Assembly (NCBI RefSeq): GCF_001029505.1 | Contig: NZ_LEKH01000002.1 | Coordinates: 1-64,000, forward strand | Source: Rubrobacter aplysinae | Lineage (GTDB): Bacteria > Actinomycetota > Rubrobacteria > Rubrobacterales > Rubrobacteraceae | DNA length: 64,000 bases | Reading direction: 5' to 3' | Shown: positions 28,747 to 36,851 of the stretch, piece by piece | Layout: each line of letters starts with the position of its first letter | Numbering within the stretch: the stretch's first letter is position 1 | Made by a program: the position numbers and the translations under genes | Notes under the pieces: generated by a model | What the model saw: only the letters and a program-made list of their open reading frames with translations | Databases searched by the model: none | What the model was told of the DNA's origin: nothing

Positions 28747-28803
28747 GTTATCAAGTTTCTTTTCCAATCGGAGTATTTAGCGTATCTATGAACGTTTGTA
28801 AAG

Positions 28804-28876
28804 TGGAGCCGACGGGACTCGAACCCGTGACCTCCGCCGTGCAAAGGCGGCGCTCTCCCAACTGAGCTACGGCCCC
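28804..28876 (-). tRNA. tRNA-Ala (anticodon TGC)
   Basis: Folds as a complete 73-base cloverleaf on the minus strand: acceptor GGGGCCG paired with CGGCTCC, D arm with AGCTCAGTTGGGAGAGC, anticodon stem CCGCC/GGCGG with loop TTTGCAC, T arm CGGGTTCGAGTCCCG, discriminator A. CCA is not encoded. The 3' end faces the putative island. Confidence 0.97.
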
Positions 28877-29703: not shown

Positions 29704-29733
29704 AGGAGAACCGTGATGCGGGTGCTCGGAGGG

Positions 29734-29808
29734 TGGGCCTGCCTGGATTTGAACCAGGGACCTCCACTTTATCAGAGTGGCGCTCTAACCGAACTGAGCT
29801 ACAGGCCC
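29734..29808 (-). tRNA. tRNA-Ile (anticodon GAT)
   Basis: A 75-base cloverleaf on the minus strand: acceptor GGGCCTG/CAGGCCC, D arm TAGCTCAGTTCGGTTAGAGC, anticodon loop CTGATAA, T arm CTGGTTCAAATCCAG, discriminator A, CCA not encoded. Its anticodon and discriminator match the two tRNA-contact sites of the ileS T-box leader in this window. Confidence 0.97.
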
Positions 29809-30006: not shown

Positions 30007-30516
30007 GTGAGCGCCAACGGCTTCACCCGGATGTCAATCTACGGCATAAACTTGGATCTTTTCAGCTCTAGCCCGATCGTGATCCTCAAGGTCGAGGAGG
30101 AGAACCGTTATCTGCCGATCTGGATCGGCCAGCCGGAGGCGCGTTCGATTCTCATGAAGCTCCAGAGTCAGGAGTTCTCCCGGCCCCTGACCCACGACCT
30201 CGCGGTCACCCTGGTCTCGGAGCTGGGCGGGACGCTCGAAAGCGTGACCGTCACCCAGCTCAAAGACTCCACCTTCTTCGCCAATATAAGGCTGGAGATC
30301 GGGGGACGCTTCGTAGACGTGGACTCCCGCCCGTCGGACGCCATGGCACTGGCCGTCCGCTCGGGGGCCGAGATCTTCGCCGCCGACGAGGTCATAGAGG
30401 AGGCCGCCGTCGAGTTCGAGGAGGCGATGGAAGAGACGCCAGAGGACGAGGTCGTGGACAAGTTCAAGGACTGGATGGACCGGATCACGCCGGACGATTT
30501 CCAGCAGGGCAGGTAG
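30007..30516 (+). CDS. Bifunctional nuclease family protein (DUF151)
   Basis: A 169-residue protein of the BFN/DUF151 family, from GTG 30007 with GAGGAG about 10 bases upstream. The domain covers about residues 8-135: VILKVEEENRYLPIWIGQPEA, SRPLTHDLAVTLVSELGG, and RPSDAMALAVRSGAEIFAADEV. The tail is acidic (EEAMEETPEDEVVDKFKDW). Plant and bacterial relatives have been described as nucleases acting on RNA and DNA; the fold is common in actinobacteria, where the role is unknown. A bidirectional terminator follows at 30525. Confidence 0.92.
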   Translation: MSANGFTRMSIYGINLDLFSSSPIVILKVEEENRYLPIWIGQPEARSILMKLQSQEFSRPLTHDLAVTLVSELGGTLESVTVTQLKDSTFFANIRLEIGGRFVDVDSRPSDAMALAVRSGAEIFAADEVIEEAAVEFEEAMEETPEDEVVDKFKDWMDRITPDDFQQGR

Positions 30517-30769: not shown

Positions 30770-31867
30770 CTACTCCCCGAGGTCTCCGGGTGGCCGGAGT
30801 CGGGTGATCCTTTTGAGCGTCCCGGCCTCTTCCCACGGCCAGCGGTCTCCGGCTCCGGGGGAGAAGGGCGGGGCGCTCTGGAGCATCGCGCCGGTACCAC
30901 AGGCGAGCGCGTCTCCGCACACCAGCGGCTCTCCCGGCCCCAGCCGGGCCAGTGCGTTGCGGTGTACCATCGCACCGTCGCACTCCTCGATGCCCCCGAT
31001 GATCCACTGAGCAGCCGGGATCAGACCTCCCGCCACCTCCCTCATCGCCCGGCGCAGCGCGTAGACCAGGAGCGAGAGGCGGGCTATAGCATAGTTCGTG
31101 GCGGCCCCGACGGCCGCAGTGAGGTCTGCCGCCTCTCCGGTTCCGGCGGGCGCGGCGACGAGCCGCTCGGAGTCTCCGAAATCCCGCGACAGTATCCGCT
31201 GCCGGTGACCCTCCAGGGCGATCCTCCCGAGCTCGGAGGAGCCCACCGACGCCGAGAAGACAAGCGCCCCCTTGTAGACTCCCGTCTCCTCCGCCGCCTC
31301 GGAGTCGAACACTTCCCCGACCACCATAGCCCGCACCGGATCACCGCCTCTCGGATTCCACTCCCGTCCTCCGGCGGAGACGGCCCGGCCCCCTAGCGCG
31401 TCGGGCTCGCCCCAGACGACGGGGCTTCCGAGAAGGTCGAGATCCTCTTCTTCTATGAAACCCTCTTCGGCGGCCCAGCGGCCCCCGGACTCGCACGCCG
31501 CGTAGACTGCGGCGTCGTCGAGGGCCGGTATCGGGATCTCGGCGAGGCGCCGCTCTAGCAGCCGGGAGAGCCCATCCGGCGTGAGCCCGAGCTTTTCTAC
31601 CGGCGAGGAGGCGACGAGCAGCACCCCGGCGCGGGGCGCGGAGACAAGGCCGGGGGCTACATGGGAGCTAGAGGATACGGACCAGCCGCCGCCGTGGGGC
31701 GAGGCGGCTGCGTAGACCGGCCCCTCGACCCCCGGCAGCCGGGTGGCGGCTTCGATCCCGGAGCGCAGGCGAGGATAGGAAAGTACCGACTCGTCCGGGC
31801 CGTAGAGAAGGCCCTCTGCCTCCTCGCCCTCGATGCGCCACTCGTAGTCGCCGCTCCTCTCGGCCAC
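30770..31867 (-). CDS. Diverged RtcB-like protein, probably lacking ligase residues
   Basis: A 365-residue protein, short for RtcB (about 480). The RtcB pattern can be followed: RLPGVEGPVYAAASPHGGGW near residue 45 where RtcB has its DIHxGYG segment, AVGAATNYAIARLSLLVYALRRAMREV (RtcB AAANxAxxNR), WIIGGIEECDGAMVHRNALAR (RtcB HNxxxxE...HRKGATR), GDALACGTGAMLQ (RtcB PGSMGTxSY) and a C-terminal RITRLRP (RtcB ARLRPLGVVKG). The cysteine/aspartate of GYDINCG and most metal histidines are not seen; the histidine of HRKGATR survives as HRN. RNA ligation is therefore doubtful. It follows the carboxylase alpha gene by 9 bases, on the same strand. Confidence 0.55.
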   Translation of the reverse strand: MAERSGDYEWRIEGEEAEGLLYGPDESVLSYPRLRSGIEAATRLPGVEGPVYAAASPHGGGWSVSSSSHVAPGLVSAPRAGVLLVASSPVEKLGLTPDGLSRLLERRLAEIPIPALDDAAVYAACESGGRWAAEEGFIEEEDLDLLGSPVVWGEPDALGGRAVSAGGREWNPRGGDPVRAMVVGEVFDSEAAEETGVYKGALVFSASVGSSELGRIALEGHRQRILSRDFGDSERLVAAPAGTGEAADLTAAVGAATNYAIARLSLLVYALRRAMREVAGGLIPAAQWIIGGIEECDGAMVHRNALARLGPGEPLVCGDALACGTGAMLQSAPPFSPGAGDRWPWEEAGTLKRITRLRPPGDLGE

Positions 31868-31876
31868 GGGTACGGG

Positions 31877-33649
31877 CTACTCCAGGACGACCAGGGGCTC
31901 ACCCGAGCCCACGGTCTGCCCGGCGGCGACGTTGACCGCGGAGACCGTACCGCCGCGGCCCGCCCGGACCTCGGACTCCATCTTCATCGCCTCCAGCACG
32001 CATACGGGATCGTCGGCTGAGACCTCCTGCCCCTCCTCGACCAGCACACGCAGGATCGTGCCCTGCATCGGAGCCGTGACGGCCCCTTCCGAGGTGGCGA
32101 TGGAACGACCCGACCCGCCCGAGCCCCGGCGCCTGGGCGGCCCGGCGCCGGCCCCCGCCCCGTTACCCGCCGGAGCGCCGAAGTCGTCTGGGTTATCGGC
32201 GTAGAGCTTCACCTTGAAGAGTCGGCCGTTCACCTCGGCGTCTACCTCGCGCACGCTCTTTTCGTCTTTATCCGGGGAGGCGGCAGAGTCAGGCGCTGGC
32301 TCCATGGAGAGGTGCTCCATCCTCTCCTCGACGTAGCGGGTGGTGTACTCGCCCGAGACGAAGACCTCGTCGTCCAGCAACGCCGTGAAGAACGGCAGAG
32401 TGGTCGAGATCCCCTCCACCCGGAACTCGGCTATAGCCCGCCGCAGACGACCCAGAGCGCCTTTTCTATCCGCGCCGCGCACGATCAGCTTCGCGAACAG
32501 CGGATCGTAGGACTCCGATACCTCGCCGGGACCGCGCAGCGAGGAGTCAACCCGGATACCCGGCCCCGACGGTTCCTCGTACACGCTCACCGGACCGGGG
32601 CTCGGGATGAATCCCGCCGCCGCGTCCTCGGCGTTGAGCCGCACCTCGATGGCGTGACCCCGGTGCACCACGTCCTCCTGCGCGAATGGCAAGGGCTCAC
32701 CGGCGGCTATTCGCAGGCCGGTCTCGACGATGTCCACCCCGGTAACCTCCTCGGTCACGGGATGCTCGACCTGAACCCGGGTGTTCATCTCCAGGAAGTA
32801 GAACTCCTCATCCTGCAAGAGAAACTCGACCGTACCGAGCGAGTCGTAGTCGACGGCTTCCGCCGCGCCGACCGCCGCTTTGCCCATCTTCTCTCGCATC
32901 TCGGGCGTGAGCGCCGGTGAGGGACACTCCTCCAGGAGCTTCTGGTGGCGGCGCTGGATGGAGCAGTCGCGCTCGCCGAGGTGGACGGCGTTGCCGTGCT
33001 TGTCGCGCAAGACCTGGATCTCGATGTGCCTCGGCGCGGGCAGGTATCGCTCGATGTACACCGCGCCATCGCCGAAATACGCCTCACCCTCCCGGCTCGC
33101 CCGCTCGAACGCGATCTCGGCCTCGGAGGAGTCGTTCGCCACGGCGAATCCCTTGCCTCCACCACCCGCGCTGGCCTTGACCGCCACCGGGTAGCCGTGC
33201 TCCTCGCCGAACGCGATGACCTCCTTGGAGGACTCCGCGGGATCTGCGGTGCCGGGTATGGTAGGGACCCCGGCGGCGGACATTATGCGCCGGGACTCAA
33301 CCTTCGAGCCCATCGAGTCTATCGCCTCCGGGTGAGGGCCGACCCAGGTCATCCCCGCCTCGGATACCGCCCGCGCAAAGGGCGCGCTCTCGGCCAGGAA
33401 TCCGTAGCCCGGATGCACCGCCTCCGCACCGCTCCGCGATGCCACTTCTAAAAGCTTGTCTATATTCAGGTAGCTCTCGGCAGCCGGTGTCGGGCCGACG
33501 TGGTACGCCTCGTCGGCCAACACGGTATGAAGGGCCTCACGGTCGGAGTCGGAGTACACGGCGACGCTGGCGACGCCCATCTCGCGCAGGGCGCGGATGA
33601 TGCGGACCGCGATCTCACCCCGGTTTGCGACCAGAACCTTAGAAAACAT
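31877..33649 (-). CDS. Acyl-CoA carboxylase alpha subunit (biotin carboxylase + BCCP)
   Basis: A 590-residue fused subunit. Biotin carboxylase domain from FSKVLVANRGEIAVRI, ATP-grasp with KASAGGGGKGF and MNTRVQVEHPVTEE, then a less conserved linker and a C-terminal biotinyl domain with VLEAMKMES, whose lysine carries biotin. It carboxylates biotin with ATP and bicarbonate; the beta subunit transfers CO2 to acetyl- or propionyl-CoA. Such fused alpha chains with separate beta and epsilon chains are typical of actinobacterial acyl-CoA carboxylases. Substrate choice depends on the beta chain. Confidence 0.95.
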   Translation of the reverse strand: MFSKVLVANRGEIAVRIIRALREMGVASVAVYSDSDREALHTVLADEAYHVGPTPAAESYLNIDKLLEVASRSGAEAVHPGYGFLAESAPFARAVSEAGMTWVGPHPEAIDSMGSKVESRRIMSAAGVPTIPGTADPAESSKEVIAFGEEHGYPVAVKASAGGGGKGFAVANDSSEAEIAFERASREGEAYFGDGAVYIERYLPAPRHIEIQVLRDKHGNAVHLGERDCSIQRRHQKLLEECPSPALTPEMREKMGKAAVGAAEAVDYDSLGTVEFLLQDEEFYFLEMNTRVQVEHPVTEEVTGVDIVETGLRIAAGEPLPFAQEDVVHRGHAIEVRLNAEDAAAGFIPSPGPVSVYEEPSGPGIRVDSSLRGPGEVSESYDPLFAKLIVRGADRKGALGRLRRAIAEFRVEGISTTLPFFTALLDDEVFVSGEYTTRYVEERMEHLSMEPAPDSAASPDKDEKSVREVDAEVNGRLFKVKLYADNPDDFGAPAGNGAGAGAGPPRRRGSGGSGRSIATSEGAVTAPMQGTILRVLVEEGQEVSADDPVCVLEAMKMESEVRAGRGGTVSAVNVAAGQTVGSGEPLVVLE

Positions 33650-33923: not shown

Positions 33924-35498
33924 CTAGAGCGGGATGTTTCCGTGCTTGCGCGACGGACGCTCGGGGCGCTTGGTGCGGATCATCTGCAGCGCCGCTATGA
34001 GGTAGGGCCGCGTCTCGCGCGGGTCTATAACGTCGTCGAGGTAGCCCATCTCGGCGGCGACCATCGGGTTGTTGAACCGCTCCTCGTAGTCCTGTATGAG
34101 CCGCTCTCGCTCGGCATCGGGATCCTCTGCCTCGGCTATCTGGCGCCGGAAGATGATCCCGACCGCAGCACTAGCTCCCATCACCGCGATCTCACCCGTC
34201 GGCCACGCCACGTTCACGTCGGCCCCGATGTGCTTGGAGCACATCACGTCGTACGCCCCGCCGTACGCCTTGCGTGTGATGACCGTGACCTTCGGCACCG
34301 TAGCCTCGGAGTAGGCGTAGAGTAGCTTCGCGCCGTGGCGGATGATGCCGCCCCACTCCTGATCCGTACCCGGCATGAAGCCCGGCACGTCCACGAAGGT
34401 TATGAGCGGGATGTTGAACGCGTCGCAGAACCTCACGAACCTAGCCGCCTTCACGCTGGCGTCTATGTCCAGCGTCCCGGCGAGCACCATCGGCTGATTC
34501 CCGACCACCCCTACGGCGTGACCGTCAAGCCGCGCGAACCCCACGACGATATTCTGGGCGTGGCCCTCGGCAACCTCGTAGAAGTCGCCGTCGTCCACCG
34601 TGAGCTCGATGGCGGTGCGGATGTCGTAGGGCTTCTGGGCCGAGTCCGGCACCAGCTCCGCGAGCCCTTCTTCGCGGCGCTCGGGGTCGTCTGATGGGAT
34701 ATAGTACGGCGCGCCTTCGAGGTTGTTCTCGGGCAGGAAAGACATCAGGTAACGCACGTCTTCCAGGCAGGTCTCCTCGTCGGGCGAGGCGAAGTGGGCG
34801 ACGCCAGACTCTGTGTTGTGGGTCGTGGCTCCTCCGAGCTCTTCCTGCGTCACGTCCTCACCGGTGACGCTCTTTATTACGTCCGGTCCCGTGATGAACA
34901 TGTGGCTGGTCTCCTCGACCATATAGATGAAGTCCGTCATCGCCGGGGAGTAGACCGCGCCGCCGGCGCACGGCCCCATGACCACGCTTATTTGCGGTAT
35001 CACACCCGAGGCCTGCACGTTGCGGTGGAAGATGTCGGCGTAGCCGGCGAGCGAGACGACACCCTCCTGGATGCGAGCGCCGCCGGAGTCGTTGATCCCG
35101 ACGACCGGGCATCCGGTGGAGATCGCGAGGTCCATCACCTTGCAGATTTTTTGCGCGTAGATCTCACCCAACGAGCCGCCGAAAACCGTAAAGTCCTGAC
35201 TAAACACGCAGACCTTGCGACCATCGATCTCGCCGTACCCGGTAACCACCCCGTCTCCGAGCGGCCGGTTCTCCTCCAAGCCGAAGTTGTACGAACGATG
35301 CACCCGGTAGCGGTCGAGCTCTACGAACGTGCCCTCGTCTAGCAGAAGCTCGATGCGCTCGCGGGCGGTGAGCTTACCCTTCTCGTGCTGGCGTTCGACC
35401 GCCTTCCCGGAGGATGGATGCGCCGCGGTCTCCCGGAGGCTCTCCAGACCCTCGATCTTTCCTGCCGTAGTGCCTTCCCCTAGTCTCTCATTCTGCAT
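33924..35498 (-). CDS. Acyl-CoA (propionyl-CoA type) carboxylase beta subunit
   Basis: A 524-residue carboxyltransferase. Two crotonase-like domains: the N-terminal one with [17 protein letters not shown] and [19 protein letters not shown], the C-terminal one with [20 protein letters not shown] and [13 protein letters not shown]. The length and motifs fit the PccB/AccD5 group, which uses propionyl- or acetyl-CoA. I use ATG 35498 (MQNERLGEG). It heads the operon beta-epsilon-alpha on the minus strand and is divergent from the small gene at 35615. Confidence 0.95.
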
Positions 35499-35614
35499 GG
35501 TCCAGAATTCTAGCACTGTGCGGGGCTGGTTTTATACGGGTGGTAGTCTCAAACGGCTCACGGCCGGATACACTCGGGTAGACGTTCGGGAAGTAGTATC
35601 AATGAGGAGAGTAG

Positions 35615-35999: not shown

Positions 36000-36260
36000 A
36001 GGCAACCACGGCATTAGCGAGGCGACGATTACCATAGACCTTTAATTTCTCTGGCTCCCCGCGGTGGTGCTCCGGGAACTCGTCCCGCGGTGACGGAGCG
36101 TGGCCGAACCACCTGCGCAAGGCGATGCTCGAGTCAAGCTCCTTCCTCCACTCGGATAGGCCGGCCTCCTGTTTTGGTACGCCCCTCGCCTCCGACAAGC
36201 AGGATGCGTCCACCGCCCGAGCCCCGGTCCTCTTCGTGGATGCGCCCGGTGCTTACCTGG
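36000..36260 (-). pseudogene. DUF488-family gene remnant
   Basis: Pieces of a DUF488 protein are readable: RGVPKQEAGLSEWRKEL followed by SSIALRRWFGHAP and DEFPEHH (36064-36186), with an N-terminal-like piece EDRGSGGGRILL just upstream in another frame and a C-terminal-like VYGNRRLANAVV just downstream. Intact DUF488 proteins have about 120 residues with a longer stretch between these parts. Start, frame and middle are all lost, so it is not functional. Confidence 0.6.
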
Positions 36261-36284
36261 TTATTCGCCGTCTTCTCTATCATC

Positions 36285-36709
36285 TTACGAGCGCTTGTAG
36301 GTGAGCACCCGGCCCCACAGGCTCTTGGTGCCCTGATGCCGCGTCTCGGGGCCTCTAGCTCGATGATCCGGGAGTGGTCCACGAAGAGGCTCACCTCCGG
36401 GCCGTAGTTCTTTACGTACCACTCAAAGACCTCGGGGTCCGCGGCCTCGAACATTACTTTCTTGAGGCCCAGGGAGTTTATGACCTCGGCCGGCACGTCC
36501 GTGCGCCAGTTCTGTACGCTCTCGGTTATCTCCTTTAGCGCATCCTCCGGCATCAGGGTGAAAGCCCCGCCGGCGAACTTCAGAGAGTCCACGTAAGGAC
36601 CCATCGTCTCCAGCACGTCGGACAGGTAACGCTTGCCCACGACCGAGTAGTACGGGCCCCGGATCTCGGTGAGCCCGTGCTGACGGAGCTTCTCTTCACG
36701 CTCGTTCAT
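36285..36709 (-). pseudogene. comA: Phosphosulfolactate synthase (ComA family) pseudogene
   Basis: The N-terminal end (GLTEIRGPYYSVVGKRYLSD, VDSLKFAGGAFTLMP) and the C-terminal part (WRTDVPAEVINSLGLKKVMF, WYVKNYGPEVSLFVDHSRI) are well kept, but about 110 residues of the barrel are missing between KEI and TESVQNW. Near the end, one base is missing at about 36324, so the expected tail (GTKSLWGRVLTYKR) is only found in another frame, ending at TAA 36285-36287. The family joins phosphoenolpyruvate and sulfite. The gene is dead by both deletion and frameshift. Confidence 0.8.
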
Positions 36710-36851
36710 CCGCAAGAACCTGAAAGCCGTCTCGCTCGTCTCGTTAGCATTGGTTGAATTAGCTGGAGTGGGTTACGGGTGGTCTTCGAGCTGTACAGTT
36801 TGGAAGAATGTCTGGAGCAGGCGGAGCCAGCTTGTTGGTAGTCTTCTGTAC

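Follow-up and report, generated by a model that had tools for sequence, protein, structure and literature searches.

Work on RtcB treats it as an RNA ligase with a strict need for metal and GTP, and its archease-associated members include PH1602 of Pyrococcus horikoshii, TTHA1785 of Thermus and human RTCB. In the respective reports, the metal ligands of the human enzyme are given as D119, C122, H227, H259 and H353, with mutation of any one of them abolishing ligation (PMC10944509), the guanylylated residue of the Pyrococcus enzyme as His404 (PMC10630183), and R237 of the Thermococcus enzyme as a residue that binds RNA phosphates (PMC12135372). As to genomic context, the RtcB passages of PMC6514570 describe RtcB in active repair operons only.

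Here we describe a gene, given the working name rtcBL, in a stretch of 64,000 nucleotides from Rubrobacter aplysinae (positions 1 to 64,000 of contig NZ_LEKH01000002.1; hereafter the window). Judging from the residues that its product has lost, rtcBL very probably encodes a pseudoenzyme. An earlier note on this DNA had suggested a pseudoenzyme or an RtcB fold turned to another use within a metabolic operon, a suggestion supported by the predicted RtcB fold of the product, the absence of the catalytic residues from 25/25 aligned orthologs and the retention of the gene pair with a carboxylase at 30/32 testable loci. Our literature search, in which subscription journals were thinly covered, recovered neither an RtcB pseudoenzyme nor an RtcB in Rubrobacter. 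In our view, rtcBL adds to a known fold a new branch that looks inactive, and is not a new kind of system; a conserved branch devoid of the catalytic residues would show this fold and its chemistry separated by nature.

The locus and its gene neighborhood

The features of the locus are collected in Table 1. The product of accC, the gene preceding rtcBL, combines a biotin carboxylase with a biotin carrier domain according to its Pfam matches, and a GGAG lies within the final codons of this gene. The distance of 9 bases between rtcBL and the carboxylase alpha gene, as reported in the earlier note, is correct, with the alpha-chain frame ending at 31877; this spacing suggests translational coupling of the two genes.

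Table 1. Features around rtcBL in the window; gene names are working names
Feature	Position	Strand	Properties
Bifunctional-nuclease-domain protein gene, next downstream of rtcBL, convergent	30007..30516	+	PF02577
rtcBL, gene for the putative RtcB-fold pseudoenzyme	30770..31867	-	365 aa/365 codons, GTG start
Spacer from accC stop to rtcBL start	31868..31876	-	9 bases
accC, acyl-CoA carboxylase alpha chain	31877..33649	-	590 aa; Pfam PF00289, PF02786, PF02785, PF00364
accCT, acyl-CoA carboxyltransferase chain, upstream	33924..35516	-	530 aa; Pfam PF01039, E 1e-202
tRNA-Ala (TGC), downstream of rtcBL	28803..28876	-	
tRNA-Ile (GAT), downstream of rtcBL	29732..29808	-	
Open frame with ComA (phosphosulfolactate synthase) matches	36134..36715	-	193 aa

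Two further observations concern the surroundings. A tRNA-Ile gene accompanies 18 of the 20 scanned loci of this bacterial family. The ComA-like frame gives two separate matches to its family, which spans 243 positions, and on this alignment its middle part seems to be missing.

Homology to RtcB and the predicted fold

The Pfam model for RtcB (PF01139) matches residues 67-280 of rtcBL with an E-value of 1.8e-7 and a score of 31.2 bits (curated cut-off, 27), and 19 of 25 orthologs match it at E 0.01 or better. A phmmer search with rtcBL recovers the Thermus RtcB structure (PDB 2epg) at E 2.3e-11, while a profile built from the 25 orthologs recovers it at E 3.5e-18 and Pyrococcus RtcB at 6e-18. 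A profile-profile comparison with an alignment of five of the eight canonical RtcB loci of the same family was likewise positive (probability 98.3, E 1.6e-14). An AlphaFold2 model computed with the 25 orthologs as input has a mean pLDDT of 91.2 and a pTM of 0.92. Foldseek matched this model to 16 PDB chains at E <=0.001, every one of them an RtcB structure, and VIA-align superimposed it on 2epg with Z 41.0 and 2.5 A over 356/365 residues, and on Pyrococcus RtcB with Z 37.8. Overall, RtcB structures score Z 36-41 across 355-359 residues; folds other than RtcB reach Z 5.1 at most.

On the basis of these searches and of the model, rtcBL is assigned as a true RtcB homolog that is predicted to retain the entire RtcB fold. 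The likeness to RtcB along much of the chain, which had been noticed by eye, is thus confirmed by Pfam, phmmer, profile and structural comparisons, and the predicted fold, for which an unrelated one had been named as the refuting outcome, is that of RtcB. The shortening estimated in the earlier note at about 115 residues also holds: rtcBL has 365 residues and the 28 canonical RtcBs compared have 471-489, a difference of ~110-120.

Loss of the catalytic residues

Active-site positions were compared between 25 rtcBL orthologs and 28 canonical RtcBs, eight of them belonging to the family itself and 20 to genomes elsewhere in the phylum. The orthologs come from 34 loci, of which L021, L024, L025 and L028-L030 were set aside as partial, frameshifted or bearing a masked run; the hits in G026, G061 and G062 are also outside the alignment. 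H203, H234 and H329 of the Pyrococcus protein are what we take, via shared motifs, to be the equivalents of H227, H259 and H353 in the human protein.

The five metal ligands and the guanylylated histidine are conserved in 28/28 canonical RtcBs, whereas these residues and the RNA-binding arginine are absent from 25/25 rtcBL orthologs. The position of His329 is occupied by tryptophan in all 25 (Trp288 in the window protein), and that of His234 by Arg in 12, Ser in four, Asp in four, Gly in three, and Glu and Trp in one each; the position of His203 shows nine residue types. The segment around His404, i.e. the guanylylation loop, is deleted in all 25, and the arginine of the GSRG motif (Thermococcus R237) is replaced by Gly in 21, Glu in three and Ser in one. 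The placement of the DxxC motif (human D119 and C122) varies with the method: MAFFT aligns it with Leu/Ala, while hhalign assigns the Asp to a deleted stretch and the Cys to residue 80, which is Arg in 18 orthologs, Cys in three and another residue in four. Under L-INS-i, E-INS-i and hhalign placement alike, no conserved Asp or Cys is found at this motif among the 25. A D..C pair occurs in two of them, at residues 142 and 171, both distant from the canonical place.

Alignment-free motif searches agree, with GNH, HxGSR and HG[AR]G detected in 0/25 rtcBL orthologs as against 28/28 canonical proteins. The C-terminal Lys-Gly shows the same split (28/28 versus 0/25). Across the 111 near-invariant columns of canonical RtcB, rtcBL retains 19, with 74 altered and 18 deleted. 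According to the earlier note, the DxxC and most of the histidine ligands are not seen in the window protein; mapping the ligands onto the 25 orthologs bears this out and extends it to all five metal ligands, together with the guanylylated histidine, in each of the 25.

Phyletic distribution

rtcBL is present in 34 of the 39 genomes analyzed from the class, all of which belong to one family, Rubrobacteraceae, and in 20 of the 22 that are of good quality. G010 and G022, both at least 96% complete, lack it. A profile search of 396 phylum genomes found no rtcBL outside the family: apart from small fragments of split genes, rtcBL scores at least 138 bits, and outside-family matches reach at most 71 bits and, as judged from open-frame length, are canonical RtcB. 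A pattern-limited scan across 84,980 species genomes yielded 24 loci; the records that contain them are named Rubrobacter or Rubrobacteraceae, apart from a few named only Actinobacteria or Actinomycetota.

Association with the acyl-CoA carboxylase

At 30 of the 32 testable loci, accC lies directly upstream of rtcBL on the same strand. Among all 34 loci, two are cut by a contig end and two (in G002 and G014) have neither accC nor accCT at this place. The gap between accC and rtcBL measures 1-46 bases in 27 of the 30 pairs and 102-243 in the other three, and the nuclease-domain gene is convergent to rtcBL at 27/34 loci. In G002 the upstream position is taken by a divergent gene that reads as amino-acid-dehydrogenase-like.

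Genome-wide, G002 and G014 have no ortholog of accC (best match a paralog at 53%) or of accCT (best paralogs at 36-37%). The reverse situation obtains in G010 (99% complete), which has accC (72%), accCT (83%) and the nuclease-domain gene; ortholog queries detected no rtcBL remnant in the ~400 bases that separate its carboxylase genes from the latter (hits at E 0.025 or worse). G022 has neither rtcBL nor the carboxylase genes. G002, G014 and G022, which belong to one genus, are without both of the orthologous carboxylase genes kept by most of the family. A second carboxylase is present in G002 and G014 too, and could act there as a substitute partner.

Since three genomes dissociate the two genes, G002 and G014 with rtcBL and no orthologous carboxylase and G010 with the carboxylase and no rtcBL, an obligate carboxylase subunit is rejected as a role for rtcBL. 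The operon of accC and rtcBL is old and mostly kept, with neither gene needing the other everywhere. On conservation of the pair among relatives, which the earlier note had proposed as a check, the linkage is strong but not obligate.

Evolutionary rates were compared at the 18 of 34 loci where rtcBL, accC, accCT and the nuclease-domain gene are all present at 90% length. Mean protein distances are 0.78 (rtcBL), 0.29 (accC), 0.15 (accCT) and 0.20 (nuclease-domain gene), so that rtcBL evolves ~2.7 times faster than accC and five times faster than accCT. When the remaining two genes are controlled for, covariation is seen between rtcBL and accC (partial r 0.35, permutation p 0.001), between accC and accCT (partial r 0.36, p 0.002) and between accC and the nuclease-domain gene (partial r 0.24, p 0.017). 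Because genes with no known link thus also covary somewhat, the covariation of rtcBL with accC lends weak support to a functional link.

Functional interpretation

Taken together, the probable explanation is that rtcBL is an RtcB-derived pseudoenzyme which serves as a non-catalytic binding protein, with the carboxylase as its first candidate partner. Its origin would lie in an old duplicate of an RtcB RNA ligase of the archease type, with the fold retained and the chemistry lost. A site that has no ligands and a tryptophan inside would hold neither Mn nor GTP and would not support RNA ligation; we infer from this that the protein is non-catalytic and acts through binding, most likely by surface docking to a partner protein. 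The candidate to consider first would be the biotin-dependent acyl-CoA carboxylase to which accC, the gene immediately upstream, contributes the alpha chain; this enzyme is favored because of the linkage at 30/32 loci, the tight spacing and the rate covariation. Because of the exceptions in G002, G014 and G010, we put this partner forward only tentatively. The more specific proposal that rtcBL was recruited, in this one family, as a carboxylase subunit with a role in regulation or assembly is doubtful; if true, it would be the first RtcB-fold pseudoenzyme and would tie an RNA-repair fold to the control of lipid or propionate metabolism. The gene supplies a concrete candidate for a carboxylase partner in Rubrobacter.

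The main rival is that the RtcB fold carries a new enzyme, in which a different, metal-free active site has replaced the old metal site and perhaps acts on acyl-CoA or a related metabolite. It owes this rank to the invariance of His221, Arg224, Arg273 and other residues: there are 32 invariant columns among the 25 orthologs, many of them charged (His221, Arg224, Glu245, Asp248, Arg273, Arg303, Glu346) and stable down to 40% identity to the window protein. The operon shared with a metabolic enzyme points the same way. As the newly conserved polar residues (His221 in 25/25, His69 and Cys125 each in 21/25, with Arg224, Arg273, Asp248 and Glu346) could form a new site, a complete loss of activity is not established. 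Yet the most conserved feature of the old site is a bulky tryptophan, which looks like filling, the rate of rtcBL relative to accC and accCT is unusual for a metabolic enzyme, and structure comparison revealed no relationship to another fold. On balance, we consider a new enzyme unlikely.

A regulator of true RtcB, or a sensor that still binds broken RNA ends but does not ligate them, would be in keeping with the RtcB ancestry of rtcBL and with its retained VHR motif (His in 24/25, Arg in 25/25). The genomic co-occurrence does not favor such a pairing. With a Pfam match of >100 bits taken as the call for canonical RtcB, 15 of the 39 genomes have both rtcBL and canonical RtcB, 19 rtcBL only, three canonical RtcB only and two neither, the last being 60% and 79% complete. 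Thus, no canonical RtcB was detected in 19/34 carriers of rtcBL, several of them incomplete drafts but among them the window's genome, which is 98.9% complete, and the role of RtcB regulator is rejected on this count. Binding of RNA is made unlikely by the lost arginine and by the charge of rtcBL: its orthologs are strongly acidic, with a pI of 4.3-5.1, a net charge of -15 to -38 and 0-4 lysines, as against 5.5-9.3, -14 to +11 and 6-44 in canonical RtcB. Either form of this reading is very unlikely.

Decay of rtcBL into a functionless pseudogene would account for its fast evolution, its absence from G010 and G022 and a frameshifted copy (L111) in G023, probably Rubrobacter marinus. In G023, however, the upstream carboxyltransferase gene is split into two overlapping frames as well, and the frameshift is therefore suggestive of sequencing errors. 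Full-length open frames in 25 orthologs and a dN/dS of 0.16-0.36 in the 14 closest pairs lead us to reject decay as highly improbable, and the invariant columns and the confident predicted fold also speak against it. The median pN/pS across all 300 pairs is 0.54, with silent sites mostly saturated, and the pair from G002 and G014, the genomes without the orthologous carboxylase, has a dN/dS of 0.26. By these substitution patterns, rtcBL is a maintained gene under purifying selection.

That rtcBL is still a functional RtcB-type ligase using substitute metal ligands, as one might argue from the retained fold and the conservation of His69, His221, His302 and Cys125 in 21-25/25 orthologs, is scarcely credible, given that two orthologs have no cysteine at all, the guanylylation loop is gone throughout and none of the conserved histidines in the 25 orthologs aligns with a ligand position.

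Comparison with known systems

Two kinds of canonical RtcB occur in the family: those with an adjacent archease gene (L031-L038) and those with a GVDIACRMR motif and no archease (L040-L045). Archease itself is found in 10/39 genomes. Some canonical genes of one genus, L044 (G031:C189) and L047/L059 (G035:C102), carry long in-frame inserts that look like inteins from their sequence; the two different insertion sites, just ahead of the Cys in GVDIA-C and after HHNF, both lie at metal-ligand motifs.

The RtcB proteins of the GVDIACRMR type, found in some genomes of the family, belong to the same Pfam family as rtcBL and have the ligand motifs that rtcBL lacks. The rtcBL profile matched RtcBs of the archease type, but gave no second match in genomes with the GVDIACRMR type only (e.g. 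G029 and G020); rtcBL is therefore nearer to the archease type.

With the archease-associated enzymes of Pyrococcus, Thermus and human, rtcBL shares the fold, sequence homology, the VHR motif and the 19/111 retained columns. It differs from them in being ~115 residues shorter, in having lost the metal ligands, the guanylylated histidine, the RNA-binding arginine and the Lys-Gly end, in its lower pI and in its place in a carboxylase operon, and no archease was found in the window's genome. As rtcBL nonetheless exceeds the Pfam cut-off for RtcB, this genome, in which no real RtcB was found, might be annotated as encoding an RNA ligase that it lacks, a caution for annotators.

Actinobacterial acyl-CoA carboxylases have epsilon accessory subunits, short peptides unrelated to RtcB. 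Compared by description only, their likeness to rtcBL is that of a small extra gene beside the carboxylase genes.
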